This document shows, piece after piece, positions 1 through 17,632 of a stretch of 17,632 nt of DNA. The translations under genes and the position numbers were made by a program. Numbering within the stretch: the first letter of the stretch is position 1; every line of letters begins with the position of its first letter. The DNA is taken from positions 1 through 17,632 of the forward strand of contig JASAON010001372.1 of assembly GCA_030849065.1 (NCBI GenBank), in the 5' to 3' direction. The notes beneath the pieces are model-generated. The model searched no databases. It saw only the letters and a program-made list of their open reading frames with translations, and had not been told where the DNA came from. Source of the DNA: Jaenimonas drosophilae (lineage: Eukaryota; Euglenozoa; Kinetoplastea; Trypanosomatida; Trypanosomatidae).

Positions 1-536
1 ACATGTGTGGGGGAGTGCAGGTGCACTGGAGATGGTTCACTTCTGTCCGAGAGACCGAGTGGTCAGATTTTGTGCTGTCTTGTTGTGTATACACGTTGTT
101 GCGTGCTCAAGGGCATTTCAAAAAGAAAAAAAAAGAGATGAAGGATGAAGTTTTGTTGATGCACGACAAAGTTTGGTGCCTGGTAGTGTATCTGTTATAA
201 GGCTTCTCTGTTCTTTTCTTGGTGGTGTTTCTCTGCGTAGTGTGCTGCTCGATTTGTGGGCGTGAACGTTTTGCGCCACGCAGAGGGCAGGCTTCTAGTC
301 TTTGGTCCTGACGGAGTAGTATCGTGTAGGTGAATAAGTGGGGCACATCCAAAAGCGCGCTGTAGTAGAGCTGCTTCTGTTAAGGAAGGCACAATCATTG
401 CGTGCCCATCATAGTGGAACTCTCTGTTGGCGTTGAAGATACCAGTGACGTAGTGTGTGCCGTTCGTAAGGAGGTTCCAAGACGTTTGAGCAAAGTGACA
501 AACGAATTGAAAGACAAGACACATTTTTAGTAGAAG
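1..536. other. Intergenic region and 5' leader of the first gene
   Basis: No convincing gene is seen on either strand. The segment holds an A-rich stretch near 119-136 and a pyrimidine-rich tract at about 203-235 ending in GTAG at 237-240. From 241 to the gene start at 537 there is no ATG in any frame on the + strand, as expected of a trans-spliced 5' leader. A long open frame runs antisense through here and across the first gene, but it reads as a low-quality shadow of the + strand gene. Confidence 0.6.
203..240 (+). promoter_or_regulatory. Candidate spliced-leader acceptor for the gene at 537
   Basis: A CT-rich run interrupted by a few G residues ends in GTAG (AG at 239-240). In kinetoplastids a polypyrimidine tract followed by the first AG directs trans-splicing. 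The next ATG on the + strand is the annotated start at 537, which supports the pairing. Smaller pyrimidine patches nearer the gene (about 368-382) are alternatives. Confidence 0.4.
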
Positions 537-1847
537 ATGCTGCGCTCGACCTTCCCGCGTCGCATGCTTCGGGCAAGCCCGTTGCTTCGTGTGTGGGTGG
601 CGGAGGAGGATGATCCACATGCTCCGCCCACCACGTTTAAGAACGTGAAGCCTGGCCGTTTGCTGCGCTTGTGGCGCCAGATCCGCCACCGTGCATGGGT
701 GTGGTACACGTGGGATGAGGAGTGGGTCTCTCCATCGACGGAGGGCTATCTTCATCAACAACGCCTGGAGCAGGTATGCTTTGCTCCGCTCTCCGCCTAT
801 GGCATGGTGCCCGGCAGCTACTGTGATCCGCTGCTGTACAACACGAAGAACACCTCCCCATTCCGCTGGCATGTGGCCAACGTGGCGAGCGATATTGTGG
901 GCCACTGGTACATGGAGGCGGATGAGATCCAGCGCATCAAGGAGTGGACCCCCAAGGACCCCAATGATCCCATGGAGATGTTTCCTCGCCCGCCACAGAC
1001 GTTGCTCAAGTGGGATGAAAGCGTGGATGAGCACGGCAACCGCACCTTCCGGTACAAGTACTGCTACGACTTTATGGGGCCAACAGGCAAGTGGGAGGCC
1101 TACCCGCGCTACCCGTTTTCGCACATTTATCAAGGCAGCCCAGACCACCATGGACGTGCCGAGGGCTACGGCTTCAAGCAGGGCCACCTGCTGCGCTGCA
1201 ATGCCGAGGAGGAGGAGGTGCTCCGCCGCATCATGGAGGAGGAGGATAAGGAGTGGGAGATGGTGAAGCGCACGGAGGTGGTGCAGGAGCCGTGGTCGTA
1301 CCCGGGCAAGATCCGTCCCGGAGACTTTCGTGGAGCGGTGGAGCGCGCCAAGGCCCGCTTCCGCGATCAGATTCGTCAAGGCAAGGAAACGGATCCGAGT
1401 GAGGATCCAGAGTATGATCTGGTGCGTTCGGGTGAGTACGTGGAGCCGCAGGATGGTCCACGTTCCGAGTGGCGCCACCTGTGGACGAGCACACGTGATG
1501 AGGAGAACAAGAAGTTCCCAGACTACCAAGTCACCTTCAATGACGGCCTGCGCTTTGAGGATCATGAGGGCCGTCCTCCGGTGCACCCGGAAAGCCACTA
1601 CGAAGATGCTCCCAAGATGGCGCCCTACAGGCAGTATGAGGCGGCGGACTCTGCCGCGGCCATCGCCGATGCGGCACGGGAGAAGGCCGCACTAGATGCC
1701 TCCTTCGCGGAGGCGATGGAGCAGCACCGCAAACGGTATGGCGAGACGGCGGGTGCGCCACAGGGCCCGAAGCCGCCACTGCCAACAGGATGCCCGCCCA
1801 TGGGAAGTAGCGCCTCCTCTAGCACCACACCGAAGCCACCAGGATAG
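537..1847 (+). CDS. Putative mitochondrial protein, function unknown (436 aa)
   Basis: I do not recognise the family with confidence. The first 20 or so residues are rich in Arg, Ser and Leu with no acidic residue until about residue 23, the pattern of a mitochondrial targeting peptide. Residues 38-65 are basic and aromatic, with several Trp and Arg. The middle is rich in Trp, Tyr, Pro and Gly, as in many kinetoplastid mitochondrial ribosomal or respiratory-complex subunits. Residues about 222-246 form a strongly charged Glu/Arg helix. The last 40 residues are Ala-rich and then Pro/Ser/Thr-rich and probably disordered. A segment near residues 161-190 (DEHGN, later KWEAYPRY) faintly recalls complex I NDUFA12, too weakly to name it. 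The start is the first ATG after the splice-acceptor candidate, 297 bases downstream. No membrane segment is evident. Sure that it is a gene; unsure of its role. Confidence 0.85.
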   Translation: MLRSTFPRRMLRASPLLRVWVAEEDDPHAPPTTFKNVKPGRLLRLWRQIRHRAWVWYTWDEEWVSPSTEGYLHQQRLEQVCFAPLSAYGMVPGSYCDPLLYNTKNTSPFRWHVANVASDIVGHWYMEADEIQRIKEWTPKDPNDPMEMFPRPPQTLLKWDESVDEHGNRTFRYKYCYDFMGPTGKWEAYPRYPFSHIYQGSPDHHGRAEGYGFKQGHLLRCNAEEEEVLRRIMEEEDKEWEMVKRTEVVQEPWSYPGKIRPGDFRGAVERAKARFRDQIRQGKETDPSEDPEYDLVRSGEYVEPQDGPRSEWRHLWTSTRDEENKKFPDYQVTFNDGLRFEDHEGRPPVHPESHYEDAPKMAPYRQYEAADSAAAIADAAREKAALDASFAEAMEQHRKRYGETAGAPQGPKPPLPTGCPPMGSSASSSTTPKPPG

Positions 1848-1874
1848 TACATGAGCGAGATGCTTGTGCTTCTT

Positions 1875-1946
1875 TATATATATATATATATATATATGCG
1901 GGGAGGTGTGTGTGTGTGTACGTGTTGTGTGCGTGTGCGTGTGTGG
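1875..1946. repeat. TA run followed by TG-rich microsatellite
   Basis: An uninterrupted alternating TA tract covers 1875-1897. It is followed after a short G-rich spacer by a mostly TG tract with GTGTGC variants to about 1946. It lies just after the stop of the first gene, in what should be its 3' untranslated region or the adjoining spacer. Confidence 0.9.
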
Positions 1947-2403
1947 CGGAAAAGGGAGGTGCGTTGATGCCCGTGCAGAAGCGGCTTCCTCCTCGGCTCT
2001 ACGGCCACTGCCACCGCACCCTTCACACCCCTGTCGGTGGCGTTGCGTTTGCGCACTCGTTGAGAATCTACCTGTGTGTGGCGATGTGTGTTGCGTGTGT
2101 CTGTGTGGGTGATGAGGATCCTCCAGCTTAGCATTGTAGTATGAAGCCATAGGTCTAGGCCCATGAAGATGGGTAGCCATGAAACTGATGACTCGTAAAG
2201 AAAAAAAAACAACAAAAAAACACTCAACAACAACAAAAAAGAATTCTTCCCGTGCCCAACATCCCTGATTCCTCTTCTACTACACACCTTCACCAAGTTT
2301 GAGGTGTTGGAAATGGGAGGGGGTCGGGGGAGGGCGATGCGATGGAATGTGTACGTGGATGCGCTCCGTGTCCTTCTGCATGATACATGGCACACACCTG
2401 ATT

Positions 2404-2438
2404 CGTTTTTTTTTTCTTACACACTCCATCCATCAAAG
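2404..2438 (+). promoter_or_regulatory. Candidate spliced-leader acceptor for the gene at 2693
   Basis: A T-rich tract (2404-2418, about ten consecutive T) is followed by pyrimidine-leaning sequence, and the first AG is at 2437-2438. The following 254 bases have no ATG until 2693, which fixes both the acceptor and the start codon. Confidence 0.55.
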
Positions 2439-2692
2439 CATTGAGAGAAGCCACGGTGGAGGAACGCAGTGCAAAGTTGGCACTGCCTCGCCATTGTGCA
2501 TCCATTGTGTTGTTTGCGTGGTCGTGGTTCAGCTGACACACACCCATCATAATCATTATCATTATCATCATTAGTTTTTGGGTGTGGCGTGTGATAGACG
2601 CAACATAGAGAGAGCACGTGTGCGAGCATCATAAATTGTTCCTGGCAGCAACGCTCACACGTACTCACGTGTTGGCACCCATCCACCCGGTC

Positions 2693-5600
2693 ATGGACGC
2701 ACGCACATGGAGCACGGCGGGTTCGTTGCACCGTACCATTGCACCTTCATCCTCATCCTCATCCTCATCACAGACAAACCACCGCTCCGCGGAGTTGTGT
2801 TCTGATGGAGATGCCGTGCAACGCTTCACCACTGCCCCCACCCACAAATCGCCCCCAGCCTACGGTGAAGGTCTCTCGCAGTATCTTCTCGAGGTGTCGG
2901 AGCGCATTGGGCTGAGCTGCTCCACTGACAGCAATTCTGTGAAGGAGGAGGCGGAGGAGGTTCGTGCTCCACTGAAGCGGTTGCGACGTCTGTATCTTGG
3001 CGATGCGCCATGCACGCCATCTTCAGCTACTACTACTGTTACTACCAGTACTACTACTGCTGCTGCTGCTGCTGCATCCACAACAACATGTACGTCCACC
3101 GCCGCTTCAATCAGCACCACCCCTGACGTAGCTCTCACCACGTCGAGCAGCGCAACCACAACACGACCACGTCTGTGGTTGGGGCCAACCTCATACGCAC
3201 CTGAGGCGAAGGAGGAGGAGGACCATCACAACACATCATCCACGGCAACCTCTCCGAGCATCGTCAGCCCCGCTCAGCCACCAACGTTGCGCTCCATCTT
3301 CTTGGATGCGGATCAAGCAACGTACGAGGCCCTCTGCACGGTAGGATTGAGCACCCTCATGCCCGCCATGGCTTCAACCACCTCTACATCCCTGACAGTT
3401 CCAAGCAGCGGTGATGTAGATGCACGTCTCGATCTTCTCGAGGAGGTGAAACTATGCAATATTGTGCCACTCCTCCCCCGCACCTTCGCGTGGCGCTCCT
3501 TGGTGCAGCAGGTCGTTCCCTGCACCGCTGTGGGAGCACCAACCACCACCACCACCACCGCAAGTAGCGATGCCAGTGTGTGTGGTGGCCATTGCTCGGG
3601 CCATGTGCGGGCAGCTCAGGCTGCACATCGAGAGCATCTTCTTCATCTCTCCGTTCTTCCCTCGCCGGGGACGTCGTCCACCTCCACATCCACGACGGGT
3701 GCAACCACCACCAACAACAACACCGGAGATGAAACATCTGTTCCGCCAGCCTCTGCCACGGACATACCCCCGTGGGAGCGCTTGTGGGGCAGTGAAACAC
3801 GTGGGGTGATGGTGGAGTGGTGCAGCGGCGGTGTTGGATATACAACCGACGTGGATGGCCTCCTCGAGGAGCAGCGACGACGTGCAGAGCGCACATACTA
3901 CTTCCCCATGACCTCTTATCATGCTCGTGGCCACCACCACCACCAACAGCAACAGCAAGAAGTTGTAGGTGCGAAGCGGCCACGCTCCATGATGGATCTC
4001 GATCTTCATCAGCCACCACATACGTTGCGTGGAGCGACCCTTCTGCAGTTGTGGTCGGCGAAGGAGTTTGCCGATGAGAAGATGGATCTGCAACACCACA
4101 ACACACGTGGCGCATCATCATCGACGATGGAGATGAAGACAGAGGAGGAGAAGGGATCCACCTACTCAACCGTGTTGGCTGTACCGCAACAACACCAACA
4201 TCACCACCAAATATGTTGTGGCTGCCATCACTGCCAGCCGTGGTCGGCGCGCTACGCACACGTTGCCCTTCAGTGCGTGGATCTCCAAGCCTACCTCCAC
4301 GAACTGCATCGAGTAAGTTCGTGGCCTCTCGATAACAACCGTCCGCGAGCTCGTCGATGGTTGGATTCTGATCATCAGCATCATCAGCATCATTATGCAT
4401 GCCCTCCACATGAGGTGAATATGCTTCATGTGTTTCCACGTCTGTTGCAGCGTGGTGACGCCAACACCAACACCAAATATCATGAAGATGATGATGATGA
4501 TGATGAGGTGCAATGGCTGGGGAACATCGCGCGTCGTACACGTGCCGTGGAGGTGTGTGCGTTGGAGGAGTGTGTTCTTGTGTGTCTCGCACCAGAAAAT
4601 CAGCCCTACCGCGCAGAGCTGCTGCCCCCGATGGAGGCCTTCATTCGTCTTCTCAGCTGCCGTTTGGCGCCGCGGGTGGAGATGGCGATGGAGGCGTGCG
4701 CCGATGTACGTGGCACACGTCTCGCCGAGGCGGTGGCGGAGGAGCTTCACACCACTCCAGAATCGCTGCACGCGTCCACCAACTTCATGATGTCCGAGAT
4801 GAATGTGTCACTGCCTCCACACAATCCTGTCGCGGCACGTCGGCGATATCGCCAACAGATGCGCGCATCCGTACAACAACATGTTGTTGGTGGTGATGGG
4901 ATGAGCTCCACGCTTCATTCATGTGCCACACGTGCGTGGGAGCATCTGTGTAGCTCCATTCCGCTCCTCGCTCATGATGATGAGGAGGCGAAGAAGGAGC
5001 GGCCAACCAAAGTGTTGTTGCTGGATGATGATGATGATGATGATGATGGTCAGGATGTTGGGAATGAGGATGAGGATGAGAATGATTTGGCAACACGATT
5101 GGCCAAGATGCACGCCGATGATGCGCTGAATTCCGCCGCGGAGGAGGTGGTTGGTGTTGTGGTGGAGGCCCTCCGCCACGTGCTTTACCGCCGCATCATG
5201 GTGATGTACGAGCTGCTGCGGTGGCTCGCCACACGTTTCGCCATGGGCCGCTCCAACCGTGAGTTGATGCTGCGCTATCGTCAGTGGTACGCAGAGACGC
5301 CATCTCCGGCGGCGGTGTTGCGTCTGCTGCACAAGTCTGCGTGTTTTCAGAGTGCGATGGTCCGCCGCTTCCCGCGCTACTTCTCATTTCTTGCGGATGA
5401 AGCAACAACACCTCCACAGAGCCCAATGACCCCGCCCTCCTACACATCGTCTAAACATCATCATCATCATTATCATTCACGTCGTGGTTTTGCGAGTGCC
5501 AACACAACCAGTGGTGAGCTCTCCGATGAGATGGACCACCACGCCTTCGTGCCGGAATCAGCCCTGCTGGAGGAATGCTACTGGAGCCGCTTTGCCGAAT

Positions 5601-5974
5601 GGGCAGCGCGAGGTAGCTCCACCACACACTCACCACATCATCTTGCACTGGCACCCGCACCTCCACCCACGATGTACGCCTCACCGCTTCCTCACGCGGC
5701 ACAACTTCCCTCGCCAACCTTCTCGAGCGCGAGCCATCGTTCGCCAACACTTGGCGGAGGTGATGCCTCCCCGACGAGCACCGATACATCTTCACCACAT
5801 AGCCCAGCAAGTACCACCACGCCATCATCCAGCGCCTACGCGACGCAACATCATTCTGCGGCGGTTGATGCCACCTTGCGTGTGGTTATGCGATCGCTGC
5901 AACACGATGGCCGAACAATGTCGCTGGATGAGATTGACCATCATAGCAGGCTGCCGCAGAGAATAACAGAGTGA
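2693..5974 (+). CDS. Large low-complexity-rich protein, function unknown (1093 aa)
   Basis: I do not recognise this protein. It alternates between complex, conserved-looking blocks and simple-sequence inserts. Inserts include a Ser run near residue 20, Thr/Ala/Ser stretches at about 110-165, His/Gln-rich patches, two Asp runs (about residues 599-605 and 776-784) and a His run near 923-927. More ordered Leu/Arg/Glu-rich blocks lie at about residues 200-275, 520-560, 610-730 and 815-905; the last two look helical. The C-terminal 150 residues are rich in Ser-Pro and Thr-Pro dipeptides, suggesting a phosphorylated disordered tail. No signal peptide or clear membrane segment is seen. The open frame extends upstream of 2693 but without an ATG, so the start is the first ATG after the splice-acceptor candidate. 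A scaffold role would fit the layout but is only a guess. Confidence 0.82.
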   Translation: MDARTWSTAGSLHRTIAPSSSSSSSSQTNHRSAELCSDGDAVQRFTTAPTHKSPPAYGEGLSQYLLEVSERIGLSCSTDSNSVKEEAEEVRAPLKRLRRLYLGDAPCTPSSATTTVTTSTTTAAAAAASTTTCTSTAASISTTPDVALTTSSSATTTRPRLWLGPTSYAPEAKEEEDHHNTSSTATSPSIVSPAQPPTLRSIFLDADQATYEALCTVGLSTLMPAMASTTSTSLTVPSSGDVDARLDLLEEVKLCNIVPLLPRTFAWRSLVQQVVPCTAVGAPTTTTTTASSDASVCGGHCSGHVRAAQAAHREHLLHLSVLPSPGTSSTSTSTTGATTTNNNTGDETSVPPASATDIPPWERLWGSETRGVMVEWCSGGVGYTTDVDGLLEEQRRRAERTYYFPMTSYHARGHHHHQQQQQEVVGAKRPRSMMDLDLHQPPHTLRGATLLQLWSAKEFADEKMDLQHHNTRGASSSTMEMKTEEEKGSTYSTVLAVPQQHQHHHQICCGCHHCQPWSARYAHVALQCVDLQAYLHELHRVSSWPLDNNRPRARRWLDSDHQHHQHHYACPPHEVNMLHVFPRLLQRGDANTNTKYHEDDDDDDEVQWLGNIARRTRAVEVCALEECVLVCLAPENQPYRAELLPPMEAFIRLLSCRLAPRVEMAMEACADVRGTRLAEAVAEELHTTPESLHASTNFMMSEMNVSLPPHNPVAARRRYRQQMRASVQQHVVGGDGMSSTLHSCATRAWEHLCSSIPLLAHDDEEAKKERPTKVLLLDDDDDDDDGQDVGNEDEDENDLATRLAKMHADDALNSAAEEVVGVVVEALRHVLYRRIMVMYELLRWLATRFAMGRSNRELMLRYRQWYAETPSPAAVLRLLHKSACFQSAMVRRFPRYFSFLADEATTPPQSPMTPPSYTSSKHHHHHYHSRRGFASANTTSGELSDEMDHHAFVPESALLEECYWSRFAEWAARGSSTTHSPHHLALAPAPPPTMYASPLPHAAQLPSPTFSSASHRSPTLGGGDASPTSTDTSSPHSPASTTTPSSSAYATQHHSAAVDATLRVVMRSLQHDGRTMSLDEIDHHSRLPQRITE

Positions 5975-5986
5975 AGGAGGAGGTGT

Positions 5987-6032
5987 TGTGTGTGTGTGAG
6001 TGAGTGAGTGAGTGAGTGAGTGTGTGTGTGTG
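5987..6032. repeat. TG / GAGT tetranucleotide microsatellite
   Basis: A TG run passes into about six GAGT units and back to TG. It starts within 15 bases of the stop of the second gene, so it should be transcribed in that gene's 3' untranslated region. Confidence 0.9.
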
Positions 6033-6252
6033 AGAATGTTGTTGTTGGCGTTGAGGTTTGTTGTTGGTTGTGCGGTCATTGTCTAAATACTTCGTGGATG
6101 AGGAGATGTCGGTGAGAGGGCATCCATTTTGTGGTGCTCCTTCCCTCTACACATGCATCATTCATCCACCTCAGCTGCATGATTCAGGATAGCCAGATAC
6201 CTGTGCCACCCACACTACATGTGCGCATGAAAAAAACAACAACAACAACAAT

Positions 6253-6280
6253 TCGTCTTCTTCTTATTCATCATGACTAG
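6253..6280 (+). promoter_or_regulatory. Candidate spliced-leader acceptor for the J-domain gene
   Basis: A CTT-rich tract (6253-6269) is followed by the first AG at 6279-6280. An ATG at 6273 lies before the AG and would be lost on splicing; the next ATG is the start at 6422. Confidence 0.5.
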
Positions 6281-6421
6281 CATCATCAACAGTTGTTACG
6301 TGTGTTGTGTTGTGTGCCTGACGTATTCATTCAGCACACTCTCGTGTAGCTCCACACACATCACCAACCACCACAAACAACAACACCACCATCACACATT
6401 AGTTAGAAGCCCCCCGTGCTG

Positions 6422-7165
6422 ATGGACGAACACTTCCGAGTGCTCGGCCTCCCGCGTGGCTGCAATGAGGCGGACCTGAAGAAGGCATACCGCCAAAAAG
6501 CGCTGCAGTACCATCCAGATCGCAACCCAGGTGGAGCGGATACCTTCAAGCGCATCAACGCCGCCTACGAGGCACTGACAACGCACATGAAGCGTTTTGG
6601 TGGCCGTGATAGTGGTGCGAGTGGGATGCGTGGGGCAGCCTCCTACACCAATCGTGGAACATCATCATCATCATCCCCATCTTCTGCACCTGCTAGTAGT
6701 GGTGCAGCCTATCAATACGCCCGCAACACACGTGGAGCGACGCATGGGCCGAGCTCTGCCGATGTACCACTCTTCACAGATGAGGAGCTCTTTGGCAACG
6801 CCGTGCCGGGCGGCTGGAACTTCAAGCCCAACACGAAAGGTCCGAGCGCACCCTTCCGTCGTGGCCCGGGTGGCGGCCTCGGCTCCACCTACAGCGGCAC
6901 AAGCAACAACATGGGTGGAGGTGGTGGTGATGATGATGGATTTGGCCCATCGCAGACGTTTCGGGATGCCGATGCACATTGGCGTCGCGCGCATGGCGAT
7001 CGGGTTCCGGTGAGCGCCTACAACGGCACGCCACTCCGCGGGCCACGCGTACCGCCCGCCTCCTTCGATGAGTTTACGAAGATGTTTGATGAATACACCA
7101 AAAACAACGGCGGTAGCACGCGGGTAGGCGGCGTCGGCGGCAGTAGTGCCACTTCTACTGCAGCC

Positions 7166-7196
<31 letters not shown>

Positions 7197-9130
7197 CTAA
7201 TGCGGAGAGCTCCCCACGTGTCTCAACGGCCGCGGCCGATGATCGTGCCTACCGCGATGCGGTCTGGAGCAACTTGGCGAAGCTGAAAACGGATGCAGAG
7301 CGGCGTGAGGCCCTCCGCAAAGAATGGAACCGTTTGCAATCTGATATACATGCCAAGATGCACGCCGGCAACGATGCTCAGCGGGAACGCGATCGCGAGC
7401 GACAAGCGAAGGAGCGAGAGCAAGAGGCGGTGCGCCGCAAGGAGGAGGAGAAGAAGAGAATGGAAGAGGTGTACCGGCGGCTGCAAAAGGAGGAGGAGGA
7501 AACGGCGCGCATGCTCAACGCCAAGCTGCGCCAACAAGCCGAGGCCGATGCGCAGGATCGCGTCCGTCGTGACAAGTCTAACCAACTCCATATTGATGCC
7601 ATTCTCCACGAGCGTCGGATGTTGCAGCGGCAGTTGTTTTTGTTGCGCTACACACCAGACCCGGCAGAGGTTGGGGACATGGCGGATATGGAGGTGTACC
7701 TCCTCTCGGACCTCCTCGCCGACATTGGTGATAAGCTGAATAAGGTGTTGGCGGCTCGCTTGGCACGTGGCCCATGCAGCCGTTGTGGGGATGAGCCAAA
7801 GAACGGCAATCGCGATGCCTTTGCGTGCCACCACGCATGTGTGTGCGATGGGTGTGATGGCAAGGCAACGGAGTGCCCCTTGTGTGGGGCGGCACCGGTA
7901 CGCATGCCGTATCCAAAAGAATCCCCGCTGAAGGAGTGGTCGCGGGCGGCGGATGCACCTGGAAGCGCCACCACCAACAACAACATAAACCGCAACAACA
8001 GCAACAACAAGACCAACAACACCTCCTCCACGCCGAACACGAGTGCGCGCTTTGATGGTGCTGGTGTTGGCCGTGCCGCACACACCACCACTGCAGGAAC
8101 TAGCTTTAGCGGCAGCACGGCGGCCTCCTCGCCTCACGCAGCGTCAGCGCCGATCCCTGGCGGATCACCAACCAGCAACATCTCATCGCCCGCCAGCACC
8201 TCGGGCGTTCCTGCCCCCGCAAGTAGCCGGGCCCCCACCACAACACCACTGAGCCACAACACCGCGACCAACCACGATAGCAACAACAACACAACACCAA
8301 CAACACCGCAGATGGCAGGTAGCCCTCTACGTGCGGGCACTGCTGCTTCTTCTGCTTCCGCTGCTGCTTCACCTCTATCCACGTCGGCCAAGCCAGCCAC
8401 ATCTTCTGCCGCACCCGCAGCTGCTCCCAGCAACAAGACCAACACCAGCAACAACGCCACTGCTGCACCAACGTCTGGAGTGAAGGTGAAGCCAACACCA
8501 GCAACACCTACACCAACCACCACCACCACCGCCACCACCACCACCAAAGCAGCACCGACTTCGTCTGCTCAACCTGTTGTGGCACCTGCCACCACAACTG
8601 CAGCCAAGAAGCCCGTCTTAACGCCCATCACCACGACCAACACCAAAGCACCGCCGGCAGCCAGCGCCACGAAGCAGAGCAGCAGCAGTACCAGCAGCAC
8701 AACGACTACAACAACCAGCAGCAGCACCAACTCCTCGGCTGCACGAGTACAGCCACAAGGCAAGCCACCTACTTCCACCACCAACACAACAACAACAACA
8801 ACAACGTCGAAGCCAGCCGTATCTGCAGCCAACAACACCAACACCAACACCACCACCAACAGCGTCAGTGGCGTACGTGCCAGCTCTACACCAGCAACTG
8901 CAAGTGCATCTCCCTCAACAACCAACACGGCACCAGCTCGCACAGCCTCATCCGCCGCCTCAAGCCCGAAGCGCTCTGACTCCACGCCCGCTGTTGTAAG
9001 CAGCACCGAACACAAACCGCCACAGACGTGCGTGGAGGCACCAACACTCACACCCATCACACCAGAGAAGCCACACTCCACCAACCCTAGCCCAGCCGCG
9101 AAGCTGCGTACGGTAGCTTCATCGCCGTAG
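6422..9130 (+). CDS. J-domain protein with an IAP/MUL1-type RING finger and disordered tail (902 aa)
   Basis: The N-terminus is a J-domain (about residues 3-60) with the invariant HPD at 31-33, the site by which J-proteins stimulate Hsp70 ATPase. A disordered Gly/Ser/Asn linker follows, including an Asn run near 249-258. A highly charged coiled coil spans about 275-405. A cysteine-rich module then has C452, C455, C469, H471, C475, C478, C485 and C488: C-x2-C-x13-C-x-H-x3-C-x2-C-x6-C-x2-C. The spacing from the third ligand on is that of C3HC4 RING fingers of the IAP/MUL1 type, which bind E2 enzymes as ubiquitin ligases. Residues about 505-902 are Thr/Ser/Ala/Pro/Asn-rich, without hydrophobic segments. 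There is no signal peptide, so the cytosol or nucleus is likely. The start is the first ATG after the acceptor; the frame is open a little further upstream but only through non-ATG codons. J-domain call near certain, RING call strong, ligase activity inferred. Confidence 0.9.
7167..7197 (+). repeat. In-frame AAC repeat encoding an Asn run
   Basis: About ten consecutive AAC codons in the linker between the J-domain and the coiled coil of the J-domain/RING protein. Confidence 0.9.
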
Positions 9131-9482
9131 GTACAGCGTTGATGGATGATGAAGGTTCTTGGATGATCATCACGATCATGATGATGATGGTGAAGATGAT
9201 GTTGGTGTGTCGCGTAGGGGGTTGATTAACGCCAAAATATGTTTTTTTTAGATGCGCGAGGGGCGGATGAGGATGAGGATGAAGAGGATGTGTGCCTGTG
9301 TGCTGGCACCAACCACACACACATCCTGGATCTTGTGCTCTCTCTGCCCCAACACCACCACCACCACCACCATTCATGTATGTGTGTGTGTTTGTAGAAA
9401 TTATCTCTTCTCCTCCCCTGCTCCATCGTACATGCGTGCGTCATGTGCGACATGATTTTGTCTTTTTTCTTCTTTTTCTGCA

Positions 9483-9512
9483 GTGCGTGTGCGTGTGCGT
9501 GTGCGTGTGTGT
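9483..9512. repeat. GTGTGC hexanucleotide microsatellite
   Basis: Tandem GTGTGC units grade into plain GT. They sit right after a T-rich, CTGCAG-containing stretch that could serve as a splice or polyadenylation signal. Confidence 0.85.
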
Positions 9513-9784
9513 TTTGTTTGTGTGTTCGTGTGTGCGTGGGGTCGTGCATAGCGATGCATCGCCATTGCAAGGAGCAAGCTATCCTCTGTGCCTCTGGCAC
9601 GTGATGGAGCTCATCTCTTCCTACACACATGCCTGAGTGCGTGTGTGCGTGGATGCCACATTCTTTCGTATCGATGATGATGCTCAACCACACCAACAAC
9701 ACCAACACCAACAACACTCATACACACACAAGAATAATCCCGCCGTTCATCTCCTCCCATCTTCATCGATATGATGCGGGAGGT

Positions 9785-9820
<36 letters not shown>
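9785..9820. repeat. Perfect ATG trinucleotide array (12 units)
   Basis: Twelve uninterrupted ATG units in the intergenic region. The same trinucleotide, as GAT or CAT, forms Asp and His runs inside the second gene. Confidence 0.95.
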
Positions 9821-9822
<2 letters not shown>

Positions 9823-10149
9823 GTGCAACGATGCCGACGGTGTTTTCGACGAAACACAACAGCACCAAATCGTACCAACATCATCGTATCATGATGTGCT
9901 TCAGCAACATATGTAGGATGTGTGTGTGCTTGTGTGCGTCATGCTGCGGCCATCACCTCATTCTTGTTGCGACGGTGATGGCCACTGTTGGAGCATCTCC
10001 CCTCGTGTTTATCGCCACCTTCATGGAGGGCCAACACAACGAAACTCCCCCAAACAACAAGAACAACATCATCATCATCACCCCGCAGCATCTCTCCACA
10101 TGGAGCGGTGGTTGACGTATATGCTGCATGCATCTCCCCACTACACCAT

Positions 10150-10189
10150 CTCTTTTTTCTTTTCCTTCTGCACATCATGGTGTTTTCAG
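10150..10189 (+). promoter_or_regulatory. Candidate spliced-leader acceptor for the gene at 10691
   Basis: A strong T/C tract (10150-10169) is followed by a second short one ending TTTTCAG (AG at 10188-10189). The next ATG on the + strand is the start at 10691, about 500 bases on. An acceptor nearer the gene is possible, for example after the CT-rich patch at about 10381-10401. Confidence 0.5.
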
Positions 10190-10274
10190 CAGGTTCGTTG
10201 TGTTCTTAACCGTCGCTGTGATTGGCGAAGATCTGCTCCACATAGAGGATCTCGCTCATCATCCGCACTAACCA

Positions 10275-10300
10275 CGCACACACACACACACACACACACA
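10275..10300. repeat. CA dinucleotide microsatellite
   Basis: Perfect alternating CA run in the putative 5' leader of the gene at 10691. Confidence 0.95.
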
Positions 10301-10500
10301 TACACAACCTACTAGAGCTCCTGATTGCGAAGAAGGAACCTGAAACAGAAGAAGGTTGCTGCACTCATACAGCCATCGCAGCCCTCTTCTTGTTCGTCCA
10401 TCATCATCATCATTATCTTAATCGCTATCACTGTTGTGCGTAGAATTTTTTTTTGTGATTGGTTGTTTGCGAACTCGTCCACGTGCGCAGAGGAAGTAGC

Positions 10501-10558
10501 AACACAAACACACACACACACAGACACACACACACAGACACACACACACACACACAAA
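10501..10558. repeat. Interrupted CA microsatellite
   Basis: A CA run broken by two CAGA interruptions, 130-190 bases upstream of the start codon at 10691 and therefore probably in its 5' untranslated leader. Confidence 0.95.
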
Positions 10559-10690
10559 CTGAGGCAGCAACAAACGCCATCCTCACTTTGTGTGGTTTCG
10601 GATTGGTGGATTGTTTCATTGTGGTGGCGTTGATCAGCATCTACGACCTCCAACACAACAAAACACCAACATCATCATCATCATTTCACG

Positions 10691-13600
10691 ATGAGCGCCT
10701 TCACGGATGCCAACGCGTTGACGTTCCGTGGCCGCTTTTATCCAAATGGCGATGCACGTGCGGTCTTTGATGGAGAGGTATCCATCGCACGCACCACCAT
10801 CACCGTTTCAAAGCGTGCCAACCTCTACGACACCAGCGCGCGCGGCGCCTCGCCCTTTGTTGGCATGGCCTCCGCCGCACTCATTCAGTTTTTCCGTGAT
10901 GGCACCGATGTCACCCTGATGCGCGGCAACAGCCTCCTCTTTGATAGCGCAACAAATGATGCGGAGCTCGCGCGTGGTGTGGCTGGAAGTGAGCGGAGCG
11001 TGCGCCTCTTGAATGATCCCGCCTCGTGGCTGCGGCTGCGCATCCAACTAAACACGCTCGCCGAGGGAGATGCCATGGTTGATGCTCTCACTCACCGCCA
11101 CGCAGAGGAATCGCTCAGCCCACCATCCGCCACCACCAACAACAACAACAACAACAACAGCAACCGTGCGTCGTCGGCGGTGCTCGATCCACGTTCACCG
11201 AGCCAGCGCAGCTCGCGCAACGCGCAGAGCAGCCATCTCCGTGAGGCCACGGGGAGTAGGATGTACCAACCCCATGACAGCAGCCGCCCCGTGAGCAGCC
11301 ACATCAGCGAGCATCCAGCGCGCGAGGAGCGCAGCATTCCTCCCGGAGCCCGCCACTTCACCCCACAACGAAGCACCGGAGCATCGGCCAACAACAACAT
11401 CAATAACATCAACAACAACAACGGTGATCGGGCAACGTCGCGTGCCTCCTCGGTGCGGAGCTGCCACCGAAGTCGCCGTGCGTCGAGCAGCCGTCATGGC
11501 AGCCGCCATCGCGATGTTAATCATGACGTGGAGTCGGTTGGCAGCAATGATTATGATCGTCGGCCATCGCGCAGCCGCTCTGCCGGCCGCCACCAACAAA
11601 CGCACACATACACAAGTGATAGCGCCTCTCCACGCAGCGTTGGCTCACGCCGCTCCGCCGCCAACAGCAACAGCAGCCCGAGCCAGCACCTCCTCCGCCA
11701 GGCCTACAAGCTCCTTCATCATCGTCTCCATGTTATGCAATATTTGCACAAGGAGATGGTGCATCAGGCCTACCTCGTGGAGGAGGCGAAGCTCGGCACA
11801 TCGCGTCGCGGGCGCTCCACCTCGCAATCACCGCGACGCAAACATCGCAGCCGAAGCCGCACCCCACACAGCCGCAGCCCGCGACGTACGGCGGAGGCGG
11901 AGGCGGCACGTTTGCAGGAGATTGATCAGCGTCTGGCAGAGGTGGAGGCGTTGCGGCGTGAAGCGGAGCGCGATCGGGAGGTGGCGGCGATGTTGCGGCG
12001 TGAGGCGGCAGAGCGCAGCCTCCGCGAGCCCGCCTCCTTCGTCTCTCAGCCTCCCAACAACAACAACAACAACAATGTTGGTGGCGATGGTGATTTGTAC
12101 GCCCTGGCCACCATCCCCAACCACAACGAGACCGCCTCACGCAACTCACGCATATCCAACGGAGGCCAACCCCCATATGGCTGCCGCAGTGCACCTCCCT
12201 ACAACAACAACAACAACAACATCAACCGCAACAACACCGCCGCGAGTAGCATCATGGATGGTGATGTGAGCTCCACCATCGTCCTCAGCCGCTTCCTCAG
12301 TGGTGGGGCATGGCAGCGCTTCTATCCGGCCTTTGAGAGCCACATTCGTTTCTGCGCACAGGTGGATGTTTGCCTCGCCCTGAAACAACCGCGCCGACGG
12401 GTGGCCATCACGAGCATCGGGGTGGAGAATCATCACCCGGAGAGTTGTGGGCTGCGCATCACGGCAGAGGTGCGGTGTGGGGAGGAGCTCCACCCCGATT
12501 CTGCGGAGCGGCGCCTAAAGAGCTGCCCCATGCGGTTGTTGCAGCGTCTATACGATAGCTACTCCATGCTTCTGCCGCCCGACGTAGTGGCGGGAGAGGA
12601 GGGTGAGGAGGCGATGCTTCTGCCACAGGAGGGGGGTGGCGCGGCGGGCGGAGCACGTACCAATCCTCGCCAACAACAACAACAACAGCAGCAGCAGCGA
12701 CCACCTATGGCCAGTGCTATCTCCCCCATCTCGAGCAGCGGAGCTTCACAACGCCGCCATGCTGCCTACCGCGGCTACCCACAGACCAACAACAACAGCA
12801 ACAAGCCCTCCTTGGATGATCGTGCGCTTCGTTCTGTGGATGATGGCACGGCCGCCCCACGTCGTGGAGCAGCGCCGCTCTCACGGAGCCGCCAACCCGA
12901 CCAGGCTGATGTGATGGAGAGTACGCGCTACCCACGCAACCAGCCCTACCGCGGTAGCTCCTACGCACCAAGTAGCAACAACAACAACAACAACAACTAT
13001 GGACGACGACCCTATCGTGATGAGGATGATGATCAGCGCAGCAACCGCAGTGATTGGCGTAGTCCGGGCATGTCTCAGGTTCTCCGTCGTGAGATGCAGC
13101 TCCTCGACGATGAGCGGGCGGCGGAGCGCAGCCTTGAAGAGGAGAGCCGCTTGCTCGATGAGGCACGTGCGCGCCGTCGCGACAGCCTCGCGAGCAGCAG
13201 CCGTGGAGGTGGCGCGCGTGCGCGCTCTGACCGCCGCAACATGGATGCCAAGCTCGAAGATGTTGTGGGTGAGGAGGCTGTGGAGCGTGCCGCACTCATT
13301 GTGGGTGCCGCACGGCAGCTAAAGACCCTCCTTGACGCCCATCGCCGTCGTGAGGCGCAGCTGAATTTGCAGGACGTGGAGGCCTACCGCCGCACCACGG
13401 TGCAGGAGCAGCAACGCTACGAGGCCGAGGCACTGCGCAAGGCGATGCGGGCCAAGGCCTCTGGCCACCCGGCACGCATGGAGCAGCTGCGTGAGGCGGA
13501 GCGCGCACACCGCGATGCTATTCTCCGCCAAGAAGCGACGCAGCGTGCGTCGTTCCTGCTCAGCGCCACGGCATTCTTGCGTGATTGTTGGAGTTATGAG

Positions 13601-14662
13601 GCGGAATCTGTGGAGCGGGAGGAGATGGCGGCGCGGCTCGCCATCGAGGCAGACGGCCTCGCCGGGTGGTCGCGCCTTCTTCTACGCCGCAAGGACGATC
13701 TCCAGTGGCTGAAGAAGCAGCAACAACAACGTGGCCGGTCTGTGGGGTGGAGGAACGCCGCACCCGGTGATGGCAGTGGCGACGTGCTCACCATGACGAA
13801 CGACCTCCACACGCAGGAACACGCCGAGCGCAGCGCCATCCTCCGCGAGGAGAGCCGCCGCCGCCTTCTCTTCCGGCGTGAGTGGCTCCACTACGGTGAA
13901 AACATTGATCGCGCACGCATCGAGGCGGAGGAGCAGCGCGCACGCGATGAGGTGGTTGATCGCCGACTGAGCCAAGGACGCCGCCACGTCGAGAAGCAGC
14001 TCGCGCAGCGCGAGGAGCTCCAGAGCCTTCGTAGTGAGGAAGATTTTTATCGTCGCGCCATTCTCTCCGATGAGCAGGATGCACGTGATGTGATTGGGGA
14101 GGTGATGGCCGCGGCGGTGAAGGAGATGATGTTGGCACGACGTAGTGAGGAGCGGGATCGCACCCTGGCCTCGGATGACAACACGTGGGACAACAACACC
14201 TCGGGCACCCCACGACGACGCCGGCTGAGCACTCCACGAACACAACCAAAGGCCTTTCACTACCTCACCTTCCTCCCCGAAGACATGGACTACCCACCTA
14301 ATGCCATCCTTGCCATTGAGGGCATGCTGGGCTGCAGCATTAATCGCAACCTGGAGGTGGTGAACGTGTGCCGCCCACTCCCCAAGGCCACGGATGAGGA
14401 TCTCCAGCTCCAGGCTGGTGATATGATTCTTGATGTGGCGGGCCACAGCCTTCACTCGCTCTCACACCTCCGCGAGGTGTTAGCAAATCGGGCGATGCAG
14501 ATCCAGGAGGAGGCCCGGCAGGAGTTCCCGGGGGTGGAGGAGAGCCAACTCACCGTCAACCCTGCACTTCAGAAGTATGTGGAGGTCCTCTGCGAGCATC
14601 ATAACTTCCTTGTGCAGGTACTCCGTGGCTGCGACATTTACCAAATTATTGTACGATCCTAG
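10691..14662 (+). CDS. Asn-rich, SR-containing coiled-coil protein with C-terminal PDZ-like domain (1323 aa)
   Basis: Residues 1-135 look like a compact beta-rich domain of unknown family. Asn runs and Ser/Arg-rich segments follow (about 245-320 and 372-400, with RS and SP dipeptides), then a charged helix (about 400-450). Residues about 526-592 form a second ordered block with the DVCLAL...RRRVAITSI pattern, similar to short alpha/beta modules I associate with large kinetoplastid cytoskeletal proteins. A Gln run encoded at about 12671-12697 precedes more Asn runs. From about 794 to 1150 lie long Arg/Glu helices with a recurring E..xR.AIL motif (around E865, E897, E935, E1046 and E1117). The last 115 residues resemble a PDZ domain: LG at 1213-1214, then a GDMIL loop (G1243, D1244) before VAGHSL, and a final VQVLRG strand. 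Together these suggest a cytoskeletal or flagellar scaffold; this is inference. The start is the first ATG after the acceptor candidate. No membrane segment or signal peptide is seen. Confidence 0.87.
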   Translation: MSAFTDANALTFRGRFYPNGDARAVFDGEVSIARTTITVSKRANLYDTSARGASPFVGMASAALIQFFRDGTDVTLMRGNSLLFDSATNDAELARGVAGSERSVRLLNDPASWLRLRIQLNTLAEGDAMVDALTHRHAEESLSPPSATTNNNNNNNSNRASSAVLDPRSPSQRSSRNAQSSHLREATGSRMYQPHDSSRPVSSHISEHPAREERSIPPGARHFTPQRSTGASANNNINNINNNNGDRATSRASSVRSCHRSRRASSSRHGSRHRDVNHDVESVGSNDYDRRPSRSRSAGRHQQTHTYTSDSASPRSVGSRRSAANSNSSPSQHLLRQAYKLLHHRLHVMQYLHKEMVHQAYLVEEAKLGTSRRGRSTSQSPRRKHRSRSRTPHSRSPRRTAEAEAARLQEIDQRLAEVEALRREAERDREVAAMLRREAAERSLREPASFVSQPPNNNNNNNVGGDGDLYALATIPNHNETASRNSRISNGGQPPYGCRSAPPYNNNNNNINRNNTAASSIMDGDVSSTIVLSRFLSGGAWQRFYPAFESHIRFCAQVDVCLALKQPRRRVAITSIGVENHHPESCGLRITAEVRCGEELHPDSAERRLKSCPMRLLQRLYDSYSMLLPPDVVAGEEGEEAMLLPQEGGGAAGGARTNPRQQQQQQQQQRPPMASAISPISSSGASQRRHAAYRGYPQTNNNSNKPSLDDRALRSVDDGTAAPRRGAAPLSRSRQPDQADVMESTRYPRNQPYRGSSYAPSSNNNNNNNYGRRPYRDEDDDQRSNRSDWRSPGMSQVLRREMQLLDDERAAERSLEEESRLLDEARARRRDSLASSSRGGGARARSDRRNMDAKLEDVVGEEAVERAALIVGAARQLKTLLDAHRRREAQLNLQDVEAYRRTTVQEQQRYEAEALRKAMRAKASGHPARMEQLREAERAHRDAILRQEATQRASFLLSATAFLRDCWSYEAESVEREEMAARLAIEADGLAGWSRLLLRRKDDLQWLKKQQQQRGRSVGWRNAAPGDGSGDVLTMTNDLHTQEHAERSAILREESRRRLLFRREWLHYGENIDRARIEAEEQRARDEVVDRRLSQGRRHVEKQLAQREELQSLRSEEDFYRRAILSDEQDARDVIGEVMAAAVKEMMLARRSEERDRTLASDDNTWDNNTSGTPRRRRLSTPRTQPKAFHYLTFLPEDMDYPPNAILAIEGMLGCSINRNLEVVNVCRPLPKATDEDLQLQAGDMILDVAGHSLHSLSHLREVLANRAMQIQEEARQEFPGVEESQLTVNPALQKYVEVLCEHHNFLVQVLRGCDIYQIIVRS
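11143..11163 (+). repeat. In-frame AAC repeats encoding Asn runs
   Basis: Uninterrupted AAC codons near residue 152-158 of the large coiled-coil protein. Similar AAC runs recur in the same frame at about 11391-11421, 12056-12075, 12203-12235 and 12976-12996. Confidence 0.9.
12671..12698 (+). repeat. CAA/CAG repeat encoding a Gln run
   Basis: The CAA repeat is read here as Gln rather than Asn, with the last units CAG. It lies in a Gly/Ala/Arg-rich linker of the large coiled-coil protein. Confidence 0.9.
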
Positions 14663-14882
14663 AAGAAAACACTACAGCACACAAGGACGAGGTGTGAGAG
14701 AGAGAGAGAGAGAAGCAGCATGCATCTCTCTTGTTGTGTTGATCGTGTTGGAGCTGTCGTTGAACAGCTTCCCTCCATCCAGCCAACGGAAGCCGCTCTC
14801 TTTCTTGGGTGTTGATGATGATGATGTTGTGTGCGTGTATAACCACCCAGGAGGTTCATTCAATAGATGTGCGCTCGTGCAC

Positions 14883-14912
14883 CTTGTTTCTTTTTTTGTT
14901 TCGTTTCGCTAG
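14883..14912 (+). promoter_or_regulatory. Strong splice-acceptor-like pyrimidine tract ahead of a mini-ORF
   Basis: About 28 bases that are almost all T with some C and a few G, ending in CTAG (AG at 14911-14912). It is among the best acceptor-like signals in the window, yet no long gene follows it. The first ATG is only six bases away at 14918. Confidence 0.5.
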
Positions 14913-14917
14913 AGTTG

Positions 14918-15043
14918 ATGGCGGTGGTGATGAATCATCCTATCGCTGCCACATGTAGTGTGCTTCGATGCCGATTGCTGATGGACGATGAGGTTGCTGC
15001 TCTTGTGCGCATGGAACGCGATGCTTCACTAATGGATCACTAG
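14918..15043 (+). CDS. Possible mini-gene, 41 aa, no known family
   Basis: An ATG six bases after a strong acceptor-like AG opens a 41-codon frame ending TAG at 15041-15043. The N-terminal half is mixed and slightly hydrophobic with two Cys. The second half (residues 20-40) is a charged, helix-like stretch containing LLMDDEVAALVRMERDA. There is no low-complexity content, unlike other short frames between genes. The stop overlaps the base of a stem-loop. It could be a real micropeptide, an upstream frame in a long leader of the amidohydrolase gene, or chance. Length alone gives little support; the acceptor position is the main argument. Confidence 0.3.
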   Translation: MAVVMNHPIAATCSVLRCRLLMDDEVAALVRMERDASLMDH

Positions 15044-15079
15044 CGGATCCCCAGAGGCTGGGAGCCTCATCCGATCCGC
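15043..15079 (+). other. Stem-loop: 7-bp outer and 6-bp inner stem
   Basis: GCGGATC (15043-15049) pairs perfectly with GATCCGC (15073-15079). Inside, GAGGCT (15054-15059) pairs perfectly with AGCCTC (15063-15068) around a GGG loop. A symmetrical 4x4 internal loop separates the stems. There is no T run after it, and kinetoplastid Pol II does not use bacterial-type terminators, so it is more likely an RNA or DNA structural element. Confidence 0.6.
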
Positions 15080-15105
15080 CTTACCCAGGTCTCATCATCA
15101 TCAAG

Positions 15106-15136
15106 GCACACACCACAGATAGAGTGTGGTGTGTGC
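15106..15136 (+). other. Stem-loop: perfect 12-bp inverted repeat, 7-base loop
   Basis: GCACACACCACA (15106-15117) is the exact reverse complement of 15125-15136, with loop GATAGAG. It is a CA/TG sequence and may have grown from microsatellites, but the non-periodic CCACA part pairs too. Confidence 0.65.
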
Positions 15137-15140
15137 GTGT

Positions 15141-15203
15141 GGGTCTCTGTCAGCACGTCCAAGAGCTCAACGGGCTACAGAGGTACCTTCCTATGGTAGA
15201 CCC
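15141..15203 (+). other. Composite stem-loop (imperfect 12-bp hairpin within an outer stem)
   Basis: CTCTGT (15145-15150) pairs with ACAGAG (15177-15182). The hairpin continues after a one-base bulge with AGC/GCT and CGT/ACG around an 11-base loop. GGGT (15141-15144) can pair with ACCC (15200-15203), enclosing a further small TACC/GGTA hairpin (15184-15198). It does not match a tRNA: there is no T-arm consensus. It could be part of a small structured RNA. Confidence 0.4.
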
Positions 15204-15376
15204 TACATGTGTGTTGGTCCTTATTTCTTCCACGCTTTTCCCATTTTTCTTTGCATTTCTGAACTGCGTACGTCCCCTCTGGGTGAGTTCCTTGGTGACC
15301 TCCCCCAATCACCACTCTCTCGTTTCCCACACACGGCAGCAGCACTCCACCCATGATTAGGCCATGCTATGTGCTT

Positions 15377-15393
15377 GTCGGGTGAAACCCGGC
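15377..15393 (+). other. Small hairpin, 7-bp stem with GAA triloop
   Basis: GTCGGGT pairs with ACCCGGC (one T-G wobble) around GAA. It lies upstream of the amidohydrolase acceptor candidate and so outside that gene's predicted mature mRNA. Confidence 0.4.
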
Positions 15394-15513
15394 CCTCACA
15401 CACTTCCATCACCATGAACTACCACTTCTGTAGTACAACTCTCTCTGCACTGCCACATACACACATACACATGTGTTCTGTGCCTGACACAAAGTCACTT
15501 GTTCACGTGTGCA

Positions 15514-15544
15514 CCTACTCCTTTCACCTTCTTCCTGTACTTAG
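15514..15544 (+). promoter_or_regulatory. Candidate spliced-leader acceptor for the amidohydrolase gene
   Basis: A C/T tract (15514-15542) ends in TTAG (AG at 15543-15544). The first ATG after it is 15615, which begins the conserved part of the protein. Earlier in-frame ATGs (15369, 15414) would be removed by trans-splicing. Confidence 0.65.
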
Positions 15545-15614
15545 ATCTTCAACCAGCTATCACAACCACTCACTACTACCTCCCACCCCAACCCCACCCC
15601 CACACACAATCATC

Positions 15615-16811
15615 ATGCCTGTGGATGCACTCATTGCTGAGGCCCGCGAGTCCCTCAAGATGGTCGTTGGCTGGCGCCGCCACCTCCACGCCCATCCCGA
15701 GCTCTCCAACAAGGAGTTCGAAACGGCAAAGTTCATCACGGAGACCCTGAAGAGCTTCGGCTGCCCCCAGCTGACCATCACCCACCCTGTGCCCACTGCT
15801 GTTGTTGCTGACCTGAAGGGTGGCGCCGGCGAGGGCCCCATCATTGCTCTGCGTGCCGACATTGATGCCCTTCCCATCGTTGAGGAGAGCGGCGAGGAGT
15901 TCATCTCCACAAAGGAGGGCGTGATGCACGCCTGCGGCCATGATTCCCACACCGCCATGCAGCTCGGCGCCGCCAAGATTCTCTGCGGGCACGTGAGCAA
16001 GATCCGTGGTACGGTGCGCTTTGTGTTCCAGCACTCTGAGGAGAAGCACCCCGGTGGCGCGCAGGAGCTCGTGAAGGTTGGTGTGATGGAAGGTGTCCAG
16101 AACATCTTTGGTATCCACGTTGTGCCTCAGATTCCATGCGGTGTGGTTGCTGTGAAGGAGGGCGTTCTGAGCAGCTGCAGTGACACCTTTACCATCATCA
16201 TCAAGGGAAAGGGCGGCCATGCCAGCAACCCTCACCTCCTTGTGGACCCCATCCCCGTGGCTGCTGAGGTTGTCCTTGCTCTTCAGACGATTGTGTCCCG
16301 CAAGATTGACCCCAAGGTTGCACCCGTGATCTCCATTGCCACGATGAATACCGGTGCTGAGACCCACAACGTCATCCCCAACGAGGTGAAGCTCATGGGA
16401 ACCATCCGCTCTCAGGACAAGGAGGTGCGTGAGTTCGTCCCCAAGGAGATTGAGCGCATTGCACGTGGCATTTCCGAAGCCCACAACGCCAACTACGAGT
16501 TCTGCATTGAGTATGGCTACGATATGGTGGTTAACGATGAGAAGCTGACGCAGCTGATGCGCGGCATGGCCCTGAAGGTTGTTGGCAGCGACAAGCGCAT
16601 CTTCACCCCCAAGGACCCCAGCTTTGGCGGCGAGGACTTTTCTGCCTACCAGCGTGTGGTTCCCGGCTTCTTCCTCGGCCTTGGCTGTGGCAACAAGGCT
16701 CGCGGCATCTGCGAGTCCCTCCACTCCTCCAAGTTCCGTCTGGATGAGGATTGCCTGCCGCTCGGTGTTGCCATGCACGTGGCTTTCATTGCAAAGCAGC
16801 TCATGGCGTAG
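15615..16811 (+). CDS. M20D-family amidohydrolase (N-acyl-L-amino-acid amidohydrolase / hippurate hydrolase-like), 398 aa
   Basis: The enzyme should hydrolyse the amide bond of N-acyl amino acids or short peptides using two divalent metal ions. Family marks, in order: [11 protein letters not shown] near residue 20; [10 protein letters not shown] near 79; the MHACGHDSH motif with metal ligands C107 and H109; FQHSEE with catalytic and metal-binding glutamates E142/E143; GIHVVP with H168; a dimerisation-domain stretch [10 protein letters not shown] near 198 and [10 protein letters not shown] after it; [23 protein letters not shown]; and the last ligand H370 in SLHSSKF. Length is typical (about 380-400). 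The exact substrate cannot be read from sequence. Similar genes in trypanosomatids closely resemble bacterial ones and are usually thought to have come by transfer; that is family knowledge, not shown here. It lacks the homopolymer runs of its neighbours. No signal peptide or clear targeting tail is seen, so cytosol is likely. All expected catalytic residues are present. Confidence 0.95.
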
Positions 16812-16986
16812 TGTCGGATGACATTTACCATCTCATCATCATGGGGGGAGATCATCATCAGTTCAATGAGGTCGGTGCACTTGCATTTGTACGTTCTGTG
16901 TTTTGAGTTGATCTCATACCTGTTTGATGTGTTCTAGTGTTTTTTTCTAGTGCAAATCACAATAATCTAGGTCTCCAGGGTAGGTT

Positions 16987-17103
16987 ATGTGGTTGTTGCT
17001 GGCTTGTTTTCTACGTTTGCTATTGCTTGTGTATCGTTGGGCTGCTTTACGGGAGGTCCGGTGGGGGATGACGCCACTATTTGCGGCAAAAGCCTCAGTT
17101 TAG
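16987..17103 (+). CDS. Possible 38-aa hydrophobic mini-ORF
   Basis: The first ATG after a T-run ending CTAG (16939-16950) opens a 38-codon frame. Its first 16 residues are almost all Leu, Ala, Cys, Phe, Val and Trp, like a membrane segment or signal peptide, with basic residues after. T/G-rich DNA produces such frames by chance, so the evidence is weak. Confidence 0.15.
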   Translation: MWLLLACFLRLLLLVYRWAALREVRWGMTPLFAAKASV

Positions 17104-17579
17104 ACCACCGATGTAAGCTACGTCGAGAGCAAGTGATTTTGTTTTTTTGGCGTACGCAGGTTAATGGAGCGAAGGATGATGCCGCTCTCCGACGGCACGT
17201 GGTAGATGTTCCTGACCGACGCACACATTCTACTCACACAATTCCTCCACCTACTCACGTACAACTGCCTGTTGGTTCATCTCTGTAACCTCTCCTGCCC
17301 TCAAACACACACCAAGAGAGGGAACGAGGAATGCAGCGAGTGACGTACGTTGGCTCCAAATATTATTCCTTTCGTTTATGATCGATGGTGAATGAGTGAT
17401 GAGCAAAACGTATGGATCATTCGCACAAATTACTTCGTCATTGAACGATGCTGCGATACCAACAGCATCACATTCATCATCATCATCACAATCTATATTT
17501 TCATTGTGACCTTGGTGTGAGAACGATGATGACGGCCACATGTTGTTGGCTGGGCCGGCATCTCGCTCCTCGTGAACCA

Positions 17580-17610
17580 GCTTCTTCTCTCCCCCCTGAT
17601 CCTACCGCAG
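17580..17610 (+). promoter_or_regulatory. Candidate spliced-leader acceptor for a gene beyond the right edge
   Basis: A C/T-rich tract ends in CGCAG (AG at 17609-17610), followed by ATGs at 17617 and 17630. This suggests the next + strand gene begins at or just past the end of the window; too little is present to identify it. Confidence 0.35.
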
Positions 17611-17632
17611 AGAGGCATGCACGTGCCACATG

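Follow-up and report, generated by a model that had tools for sequence, protein, structure and literature searches.

A 17,632-nucleotide stretch of the Jaenimonas drosophilae genome (GenBank assembly GCA_030849065.1, contig JASAON010001372.1, positions 1 to 17,632; the whole stretch is called the window here) carries an open reading frame (ORF) that encodes both a J-domain and a RING finger. Judged by sequence comparison and structure prediction, the two domains are genuine and belong to one polypeptide. Among the explanations weighed below we favor, tentatively and at somewhat less than an even chance, an Hsp70-recruiting J-protein co-chaperone whose RING serves as a partner-dependent or non-canonical dock for the ubiquitin machinery. 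The J-domain would recruit and activate Hsp70, and the RING, of the IAP/MDM fold and carried on conserved pre-RING helices, would dock the ubiquitin machinery. For this the RING would depend on another RING as partner, on dimerization, or on a non-standard ubiquitin-conjugating enzyme (E2). The J-domain would thereby put the RING partner beside Hsp70-bound clients.

The ORF occupies positions 6422–9130 of the forward strand, on which all segments of the protein described below lie. It encodes 902 amino acids without interruption, begins with an ATG at 6422, and is preceded by an in-frame stop at 6404, according to the ORF listing of the window. The protein comprises the J-domain, linkers, a long helix, pre-RING helices, the RING, and a low-complexity tail. 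The preliminary description of this DNA had located both domains in one uninterrupted frame, and the single ORF bears this out; the interval considered at that time ended at 7930 (residue 503), and the frame continues to 9130, giving 399 more residues downstream.

The J-Domain

The J-domain (residues 4–58, positions 6431–6595) was matched by PF00226 in the Pfam scan with 59.7 bits (cut-off 27.8; E = 3e-16), and the profile search of the genome matched the same place. The HPD motif at residues 31–33 is present in every one of the 32 aligned rows, counting the window, and also in P0120 and P0121, so that all 33 relatives carry it. The intact J-domain that had been noticed earlier in the sequence is thus secure. 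Pfam scans of the window protein found neither the DnaJ central zinc domain nor the DnaJ C-terminal domains, which sets it apart from type I J-proteins. The lack of these two regions by Pfam, and a J-domain that is N-terminal and carries HPD, are shared with the type III (class C) proteins. The intact HPD suggests that the J-domain may recruit and activate an Hsp70. Candidate partners exist, since eleven Hsp70-family matches were found in the same genome, one of them a fragment at a contig end.

The RING Finger

The RING finger (C3HC4; residues 450–492, positions 7769–7897) has the ligands C452, C455, C469, H471, C475, C478, C485, and C488 in the spacing C-x2-C-x13-C-x-H-x3-C-x2-C-x6-C-x2-C, as had been read from the sequence before. 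The complete set of eight is found in 31 of the 32 aligned rows (window included) and in P0120 and P0121, that is, in 32 of 33 relatives. When the 503 residues were shuffled 200,000 times, a RING-HC pattern never arose.

The Pfam profile zf-C3HC4_3 scored below its cut-off of 27 on the window protein, with 18.2 bits for the 902 residues (E = 0.0022) and 19.2 bits for the first 503 (E = 0.0011). It matched 25 of the 32 proteins scanned at E ≤ 0.05, the best value being 6.9e-5; P0121 reached 26.3 bits here, although PF13920 is recorded for it in the protein database. Because of the score below the cut-off, the RING assignment rests on the relatives, the family profile, and the predicted fold. 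Compared with solved structures, the family RING profile matched cIAP1 (E = 2.9e-6), cIAP2 (3.7e-6), MDM4 (2.8e-4), and XIAP (3.3e-4), and most of its nearest solved matches were ubiquitin ligases (E3s).

A Foldseek search with the whole-protein model had J-domain matches on top, none of them at E 0.001; therefore, the RING was predicted separately from the whole protein. The resulting model had a mean predicted local distance difference test score (pLDDT) of 91 and superposed on the RINGs of cIAP1, cIAP2, XIAP, and IDOL over 44 residues at 1.6–1.8 Å; a family missing from the superposition table is uninformative. The predicted fold at residues 450–490 is a cross-brace RING like that of the IAPs and not a non-RING site, in agreement with what had been proposed for this region. 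Proline follows C7, the seventh ligand, in 32 of 32 rows. Such a proline often lies at the E2 face of RINGs.

The Family and Its Distribution

Searching with the 503 residues yielded 119 proteins, the first 31 of which align from the J-domain through the RING; the other 88 match over 10–18% of the query and have a J-domain by Pfam. Scoring was limited to the 7985 candidates with the most shared words, which makes the count of relatives a lower bound. A second, alignment-based search gave 142 proteins, and 33 of the 120 listed belong to the family (P0001–P0031, P0120, and P0121), whose edge is marked by a jump in E-value from 6.8e-93 to 1.3e-15 among the matches listed. The same domain order is found in all 33. 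Organism names are attached to 13 of them, all trypanosomatids: Trypanosoma conorhini, T. rangeli (two), T. cruzi marinkellei, T. vivax, T. congolense, T. grayi, Leishmania lindenbergi, L. mexicana, L. enriettii, L. sp. Namibia, Leptomonas pyrrhocoris, and Lotmaria passim. From their kinship, the remaining 20 would be kinetoplastid as well. In a 34-row tree the window protein pairs with P0001 (support 81/89), its position among the named genera not being settled by this tree.

The loss of RING cysteines in orthologues had been named as an observation that would refute the earlier proposal. It was encountered in one of the 33 relatives, the Leishmania-like P0024, which is without C1 and C2 but keeps the other six ligands and the HPD; in the same tree it groups with L. 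mexicana at full support. In the J. drosophilae genome, a search with the whole protein found the window copy as the only full-length one, and matches elsewhere were partial and confined to the J-domain end. Residues 386–503 alone gave no match at E 0.001 among 262 candidates, a null that is uninformative, as known orthologues such as P0001 were missed too. The proteins form one orthologous family, which has a single member in this genome, is trypanosomatid, and is probably kinetoplastid more generally.

Conservation is uneven along the sequence. Mean column entropy amounts to 1.14 bits for the J-domain, 1.75 bits for the pre-RING helices, and 1.73 bits for the RING, as compared with 2.3–2.9 bits in the linkers and residues 266–385. 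The pre-RING helices (residues 386–449, positions 7577–7768) have a mean identity of 43% to the window protein and are helical in both models. Two short motifs stand out. The first (residues 115–133, positions 6764–6820; VPLFTDEELFGNAVPGGWN in the window) has a mean entropy of 1.24 bits, against 2.28 and 2.65 bits in the adjoining linkers. The second (residues 185–202, positions 6974–7027; AHWRRAHGDRVPVSAYNG in the window, around WRRAHGxRVPVSGY) has 0.99 bits and is conserved above both the J-domain and the RING; no Pfam family matched it over the cut-off.

Residues for E2 Activation

In RINGs, the residue before the second ligand (C2-1) normally contacts the E2 through a hydrophobic side chain, and the linchpin, the residue after C8, is usually but not universally cationic. 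We counted both positions in 33 rows, with the window included and P0024 left out. The linchpin is Gly in 21 rows, Ala in 10, Ser in one, and Glu in one, so that Gly or Ala accounts for 31 of 33. At C2-1, Arg is found in 21 rows, among them the window, followed by Ala, Cys, and Val (three each) and Tyr, Thr, and His (one each). As a control we took the RINGs of the same genome that matched zf-C3HC4_3 best (20 of 30 matches); the ligand pattern fitted 18 of them, and the other two were dropped. Arg or Lys occupies the linchpin in 16 of these 18 RINGs. Ile or Val is present at C2-1 in 15, or a hydrophobic residue in 16 if Leu is counted in L040, where the pattern took an earlier cysteine pair and the true C2-1 residue is Leu.

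The consequences of such changes have been measured for RNF38. The available text of PMC12326332 reports that replacing its linchpin Arg weakened binding of the ubiquitin-charged E2 (E2~Ub) 36-fold for Gly and 24-fold for Ala. Of the eight linchpin variants assayed there for activity, all but Lys and Met, and thus also Ala, had minimal activity, Gly being outside the activity assay. It was initially proposed that the window RING simply recruits and activates a charged E2; with the two usual E2-activating residues missing in nearly the whole family, this proposal is not supported in that form. With neither a cationic linchpin nor a hydrophobic residue at the E2 contact, the RING probably does not act as a classic stand-alone E3. 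This evidence argues against such an enzyme and leaves the autonomous role weaker than first stated.

Two points weigh against the reading of the RING as a partner-dependent or non-canonical dock. The control RINGs were chosen by profile score, which favors canonical residues, and the contrast with the family is perhaps somewhat inflated for this reason. Moreover, XIAP functions with Tyr at the linchpin, according to the available text of PMC12326332, so that the window RING may yet be active.

Possible Functions

The coupling of Hsp70-bound clients to ubiquitin transfer, as put forward at the outset, is partly supported: both domains reside in one conserved polypeptide. The RING, on the other hand, does not have the two residues that usually activate the E2. 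If the protein is an autonomous Hsp70-linked E3, which we consider unlikely, the J-domain would bring Hsp70 and its client, and the RING would bind a charged E2 and ubiquitinate the client. The intact J-domain, the RING ligands, and the proline after C7 fit this picture; the nearest solved relatives include active E3s (cIAP, XIAP, and IDOL), and XIAP is active with a non-cationic linchpin (available text of PMC12326332). It has to contend with a linchpin that is Gly or Ala in 31 of 33 rows and with a C2-1 residue that is Arg in 21, unlike the 18 high-scoring RINGs of the same genome, with the 24–36-fold loss of E2~Ub binding upon comparable changes in RNF38 (same source), and with P0024, which is without C1 and C2.

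The last observation and the missing E2-activating residues would also suit a structural zinc domain, that is, a RING fold acting as an interaction or dimerization module with no role in ubiquitin transfer, in a J-protein specialized for an assembly role. The best conserved stretch, residues 185–202, lies in neither domain and points to another conserved partner. The zinc ligands and the proline after C7, however, are kept in nearly all members, and ubiquitin ligases predominate among the closest solved matches to the RING profile; we hold this explanation to be improbable as well. A chance pattern or a fusion of neighboring genes, to which the sub-threshold Pfam score of the RING alone could be credited, is hardly credible: the shuffles never produced the pattern, the fold is predicted with confidence, and the orthologues, with the same domain order in 33 relatives, contradict it.

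For the favored co-chaperone with a docking RING, a wider role may be imagined. The protein could be a trypanosomatid-wide, perhaps kinetoplastid-wide co-chaperone whose J-domain and non-canonical ubiquitin-ligase RING couple the loading of Hsp70 clients to their marking with ubiquitin, engaging the E2 unlike standard RINGs. We regard this as possible but rather doubtful.

Comparison with Known Systems

The RINGs of the IAPs, MDM2/MDM4, and IDOL share the ligand order and predicted fold with the family and gave the best profile matches; the family departs from the usual residues at the linchpin and at C2-1. IAP and MDM2 RINGs dimerize via a C-terminal tail after C8. Among the 32 relatives read, 13 end 5–7 residues past C8, which seems too short for such a dimerizing tail. 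In the window protein a long stretch follows C8. The link to MUL1 was made in the preliminary description. The MUL1-type RING shares the C3HC4 type 3 class by Pfam match; the RING profile had 35 matches among solved structures, none of them MUL1, which may nonetheless be related.

CHIP/STUB1 resembles the window protein in joining an Hsp70-binding part and a RING-like fold through a helical middle, and the two might work alike by analogy. CHIP consists of a TPR plus a U-box, in contrast to the J-domain and zinc RING seen here; a Pfam scan of the window ORF found neither TPR nor U-box at E ≤ 1, and the protein is not a member of the CHIP family. A J-domain also contacts Hsp70 differently from a TPR. 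The contrast with CHIP drawn earlier is not a clean one, as a CHIP homologue is reported for T. cruzi in the available text of PMC5976635.

Five U-box matches were found in the J. drosophilae genome. Pfam detected no TPR at E 0.1 in the ORFs of these loci, which span about 1.5 kb on each side, so that the N-termini of at least L027–L029 may be cut; for three of the five ORFs, the matches to solved structures were confined to the U-box part. A genome search with CHIP_TPR_N found nothing, but the control genomes were equally silent. The absence of CHIP from this genome is therefore not established. Of the 70 J-domain and 30 zf-C3HC4_3 matches in the genome, two same-strand pairs lie within 6 kb of each other. 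In the closer pair (L058, G000:C306:68200-71400), a weak J-domain ORF adjoins a RING ORF, and the two are separate ORFs. The members of the other pair, on C180, are about 4.7 kb apart, and the open frames there (343 and 270 amino acids) are too short for both domains. Both pairs were rejected. No second J-domain and RING protein was found within the zf-C3HC4_3 class, which RINGs diverged like that of the window, itself not among the 30, would escape.

In the available text of J-protein and RING surveys, the pairing is not mentioned. Leishmania J17 (LINF_120015200; 608 amino acids, J-domain at 4–70) is given in Table 1 of PMC9141911 as type II with no zinc finger and no remarks. By its length and J-domain position, J17 is the best fit in that table and probably the orthologue, and it differs there in that no RING is noted; the whole word RING does not occur in the available text of this Leishmania J-protein review. 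DnaJ is not named among the domains accompanying RINGs in the available main text of the T. cruzi ubiquitin survey (PMC5976635), and neither DnaJ nor J-domain occurs in that of a trypanosomatid ubiquitin review (PMC7958763). CHIP is likewise absent from the available text of a paper on T. brucei HSP90 co-chaperones (PMC9538636). Exact-phrase and topic searches, mainly of the open-access literature and of the text available there, found no description of a J-domain paired with a RING. Were the protein to couple Hsp70 to ubiquitin transfer, it would represent a direct J-domain route for chaperone triage besides the TPR plus U-box of CHIP, in a group to which major parasites belong. An inactive RING would mean that a conserved RING fold has been retained without the usual E2-activating residues.

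Other Features of the Window

The charged coiled coil described earlier corresponds to residues 291–410 (positions 7292–7651), which the AlphaFold2 model predicts as one long helix, rich in Arg and Glu by composition. Judged by column entropy, sequence conservation is poor as far as about residue 385; the charged helix is predicted for the window protein, but as a sequence it is not conserved across the family. The C-terminal tail (residues 504–902, positions 7931–9127) is rich in Thr, Ser, Ala, Pro, and Asn, and the Pfam scan of the 902-residue protein matched no domain in it.

Four further ORFs were noted. The ORF at 537–1847 (436 amino acids) matched nothing in Pfam at E 1 and no solved structure at E 0.01, and that at 2693–5974 (1093 amino acids) is rich in simple repeats (runs of Ser, Thr, His, Gln, and Asp) with no Pfam match over the cut-off. 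The ORF at 10691–14662 (1323 amino acids) matched PDZ weakly in its C-terminal part and the FAZ1 conserved domain very weakly, both under their cut-offs. The ORF at 15615–16808 is an M20-family amidohydrolase or carboxypeptidase-like gene (Pfam E = 2.7e-37), with yxeP as the nearest solved chain (E = 8.6e-80).
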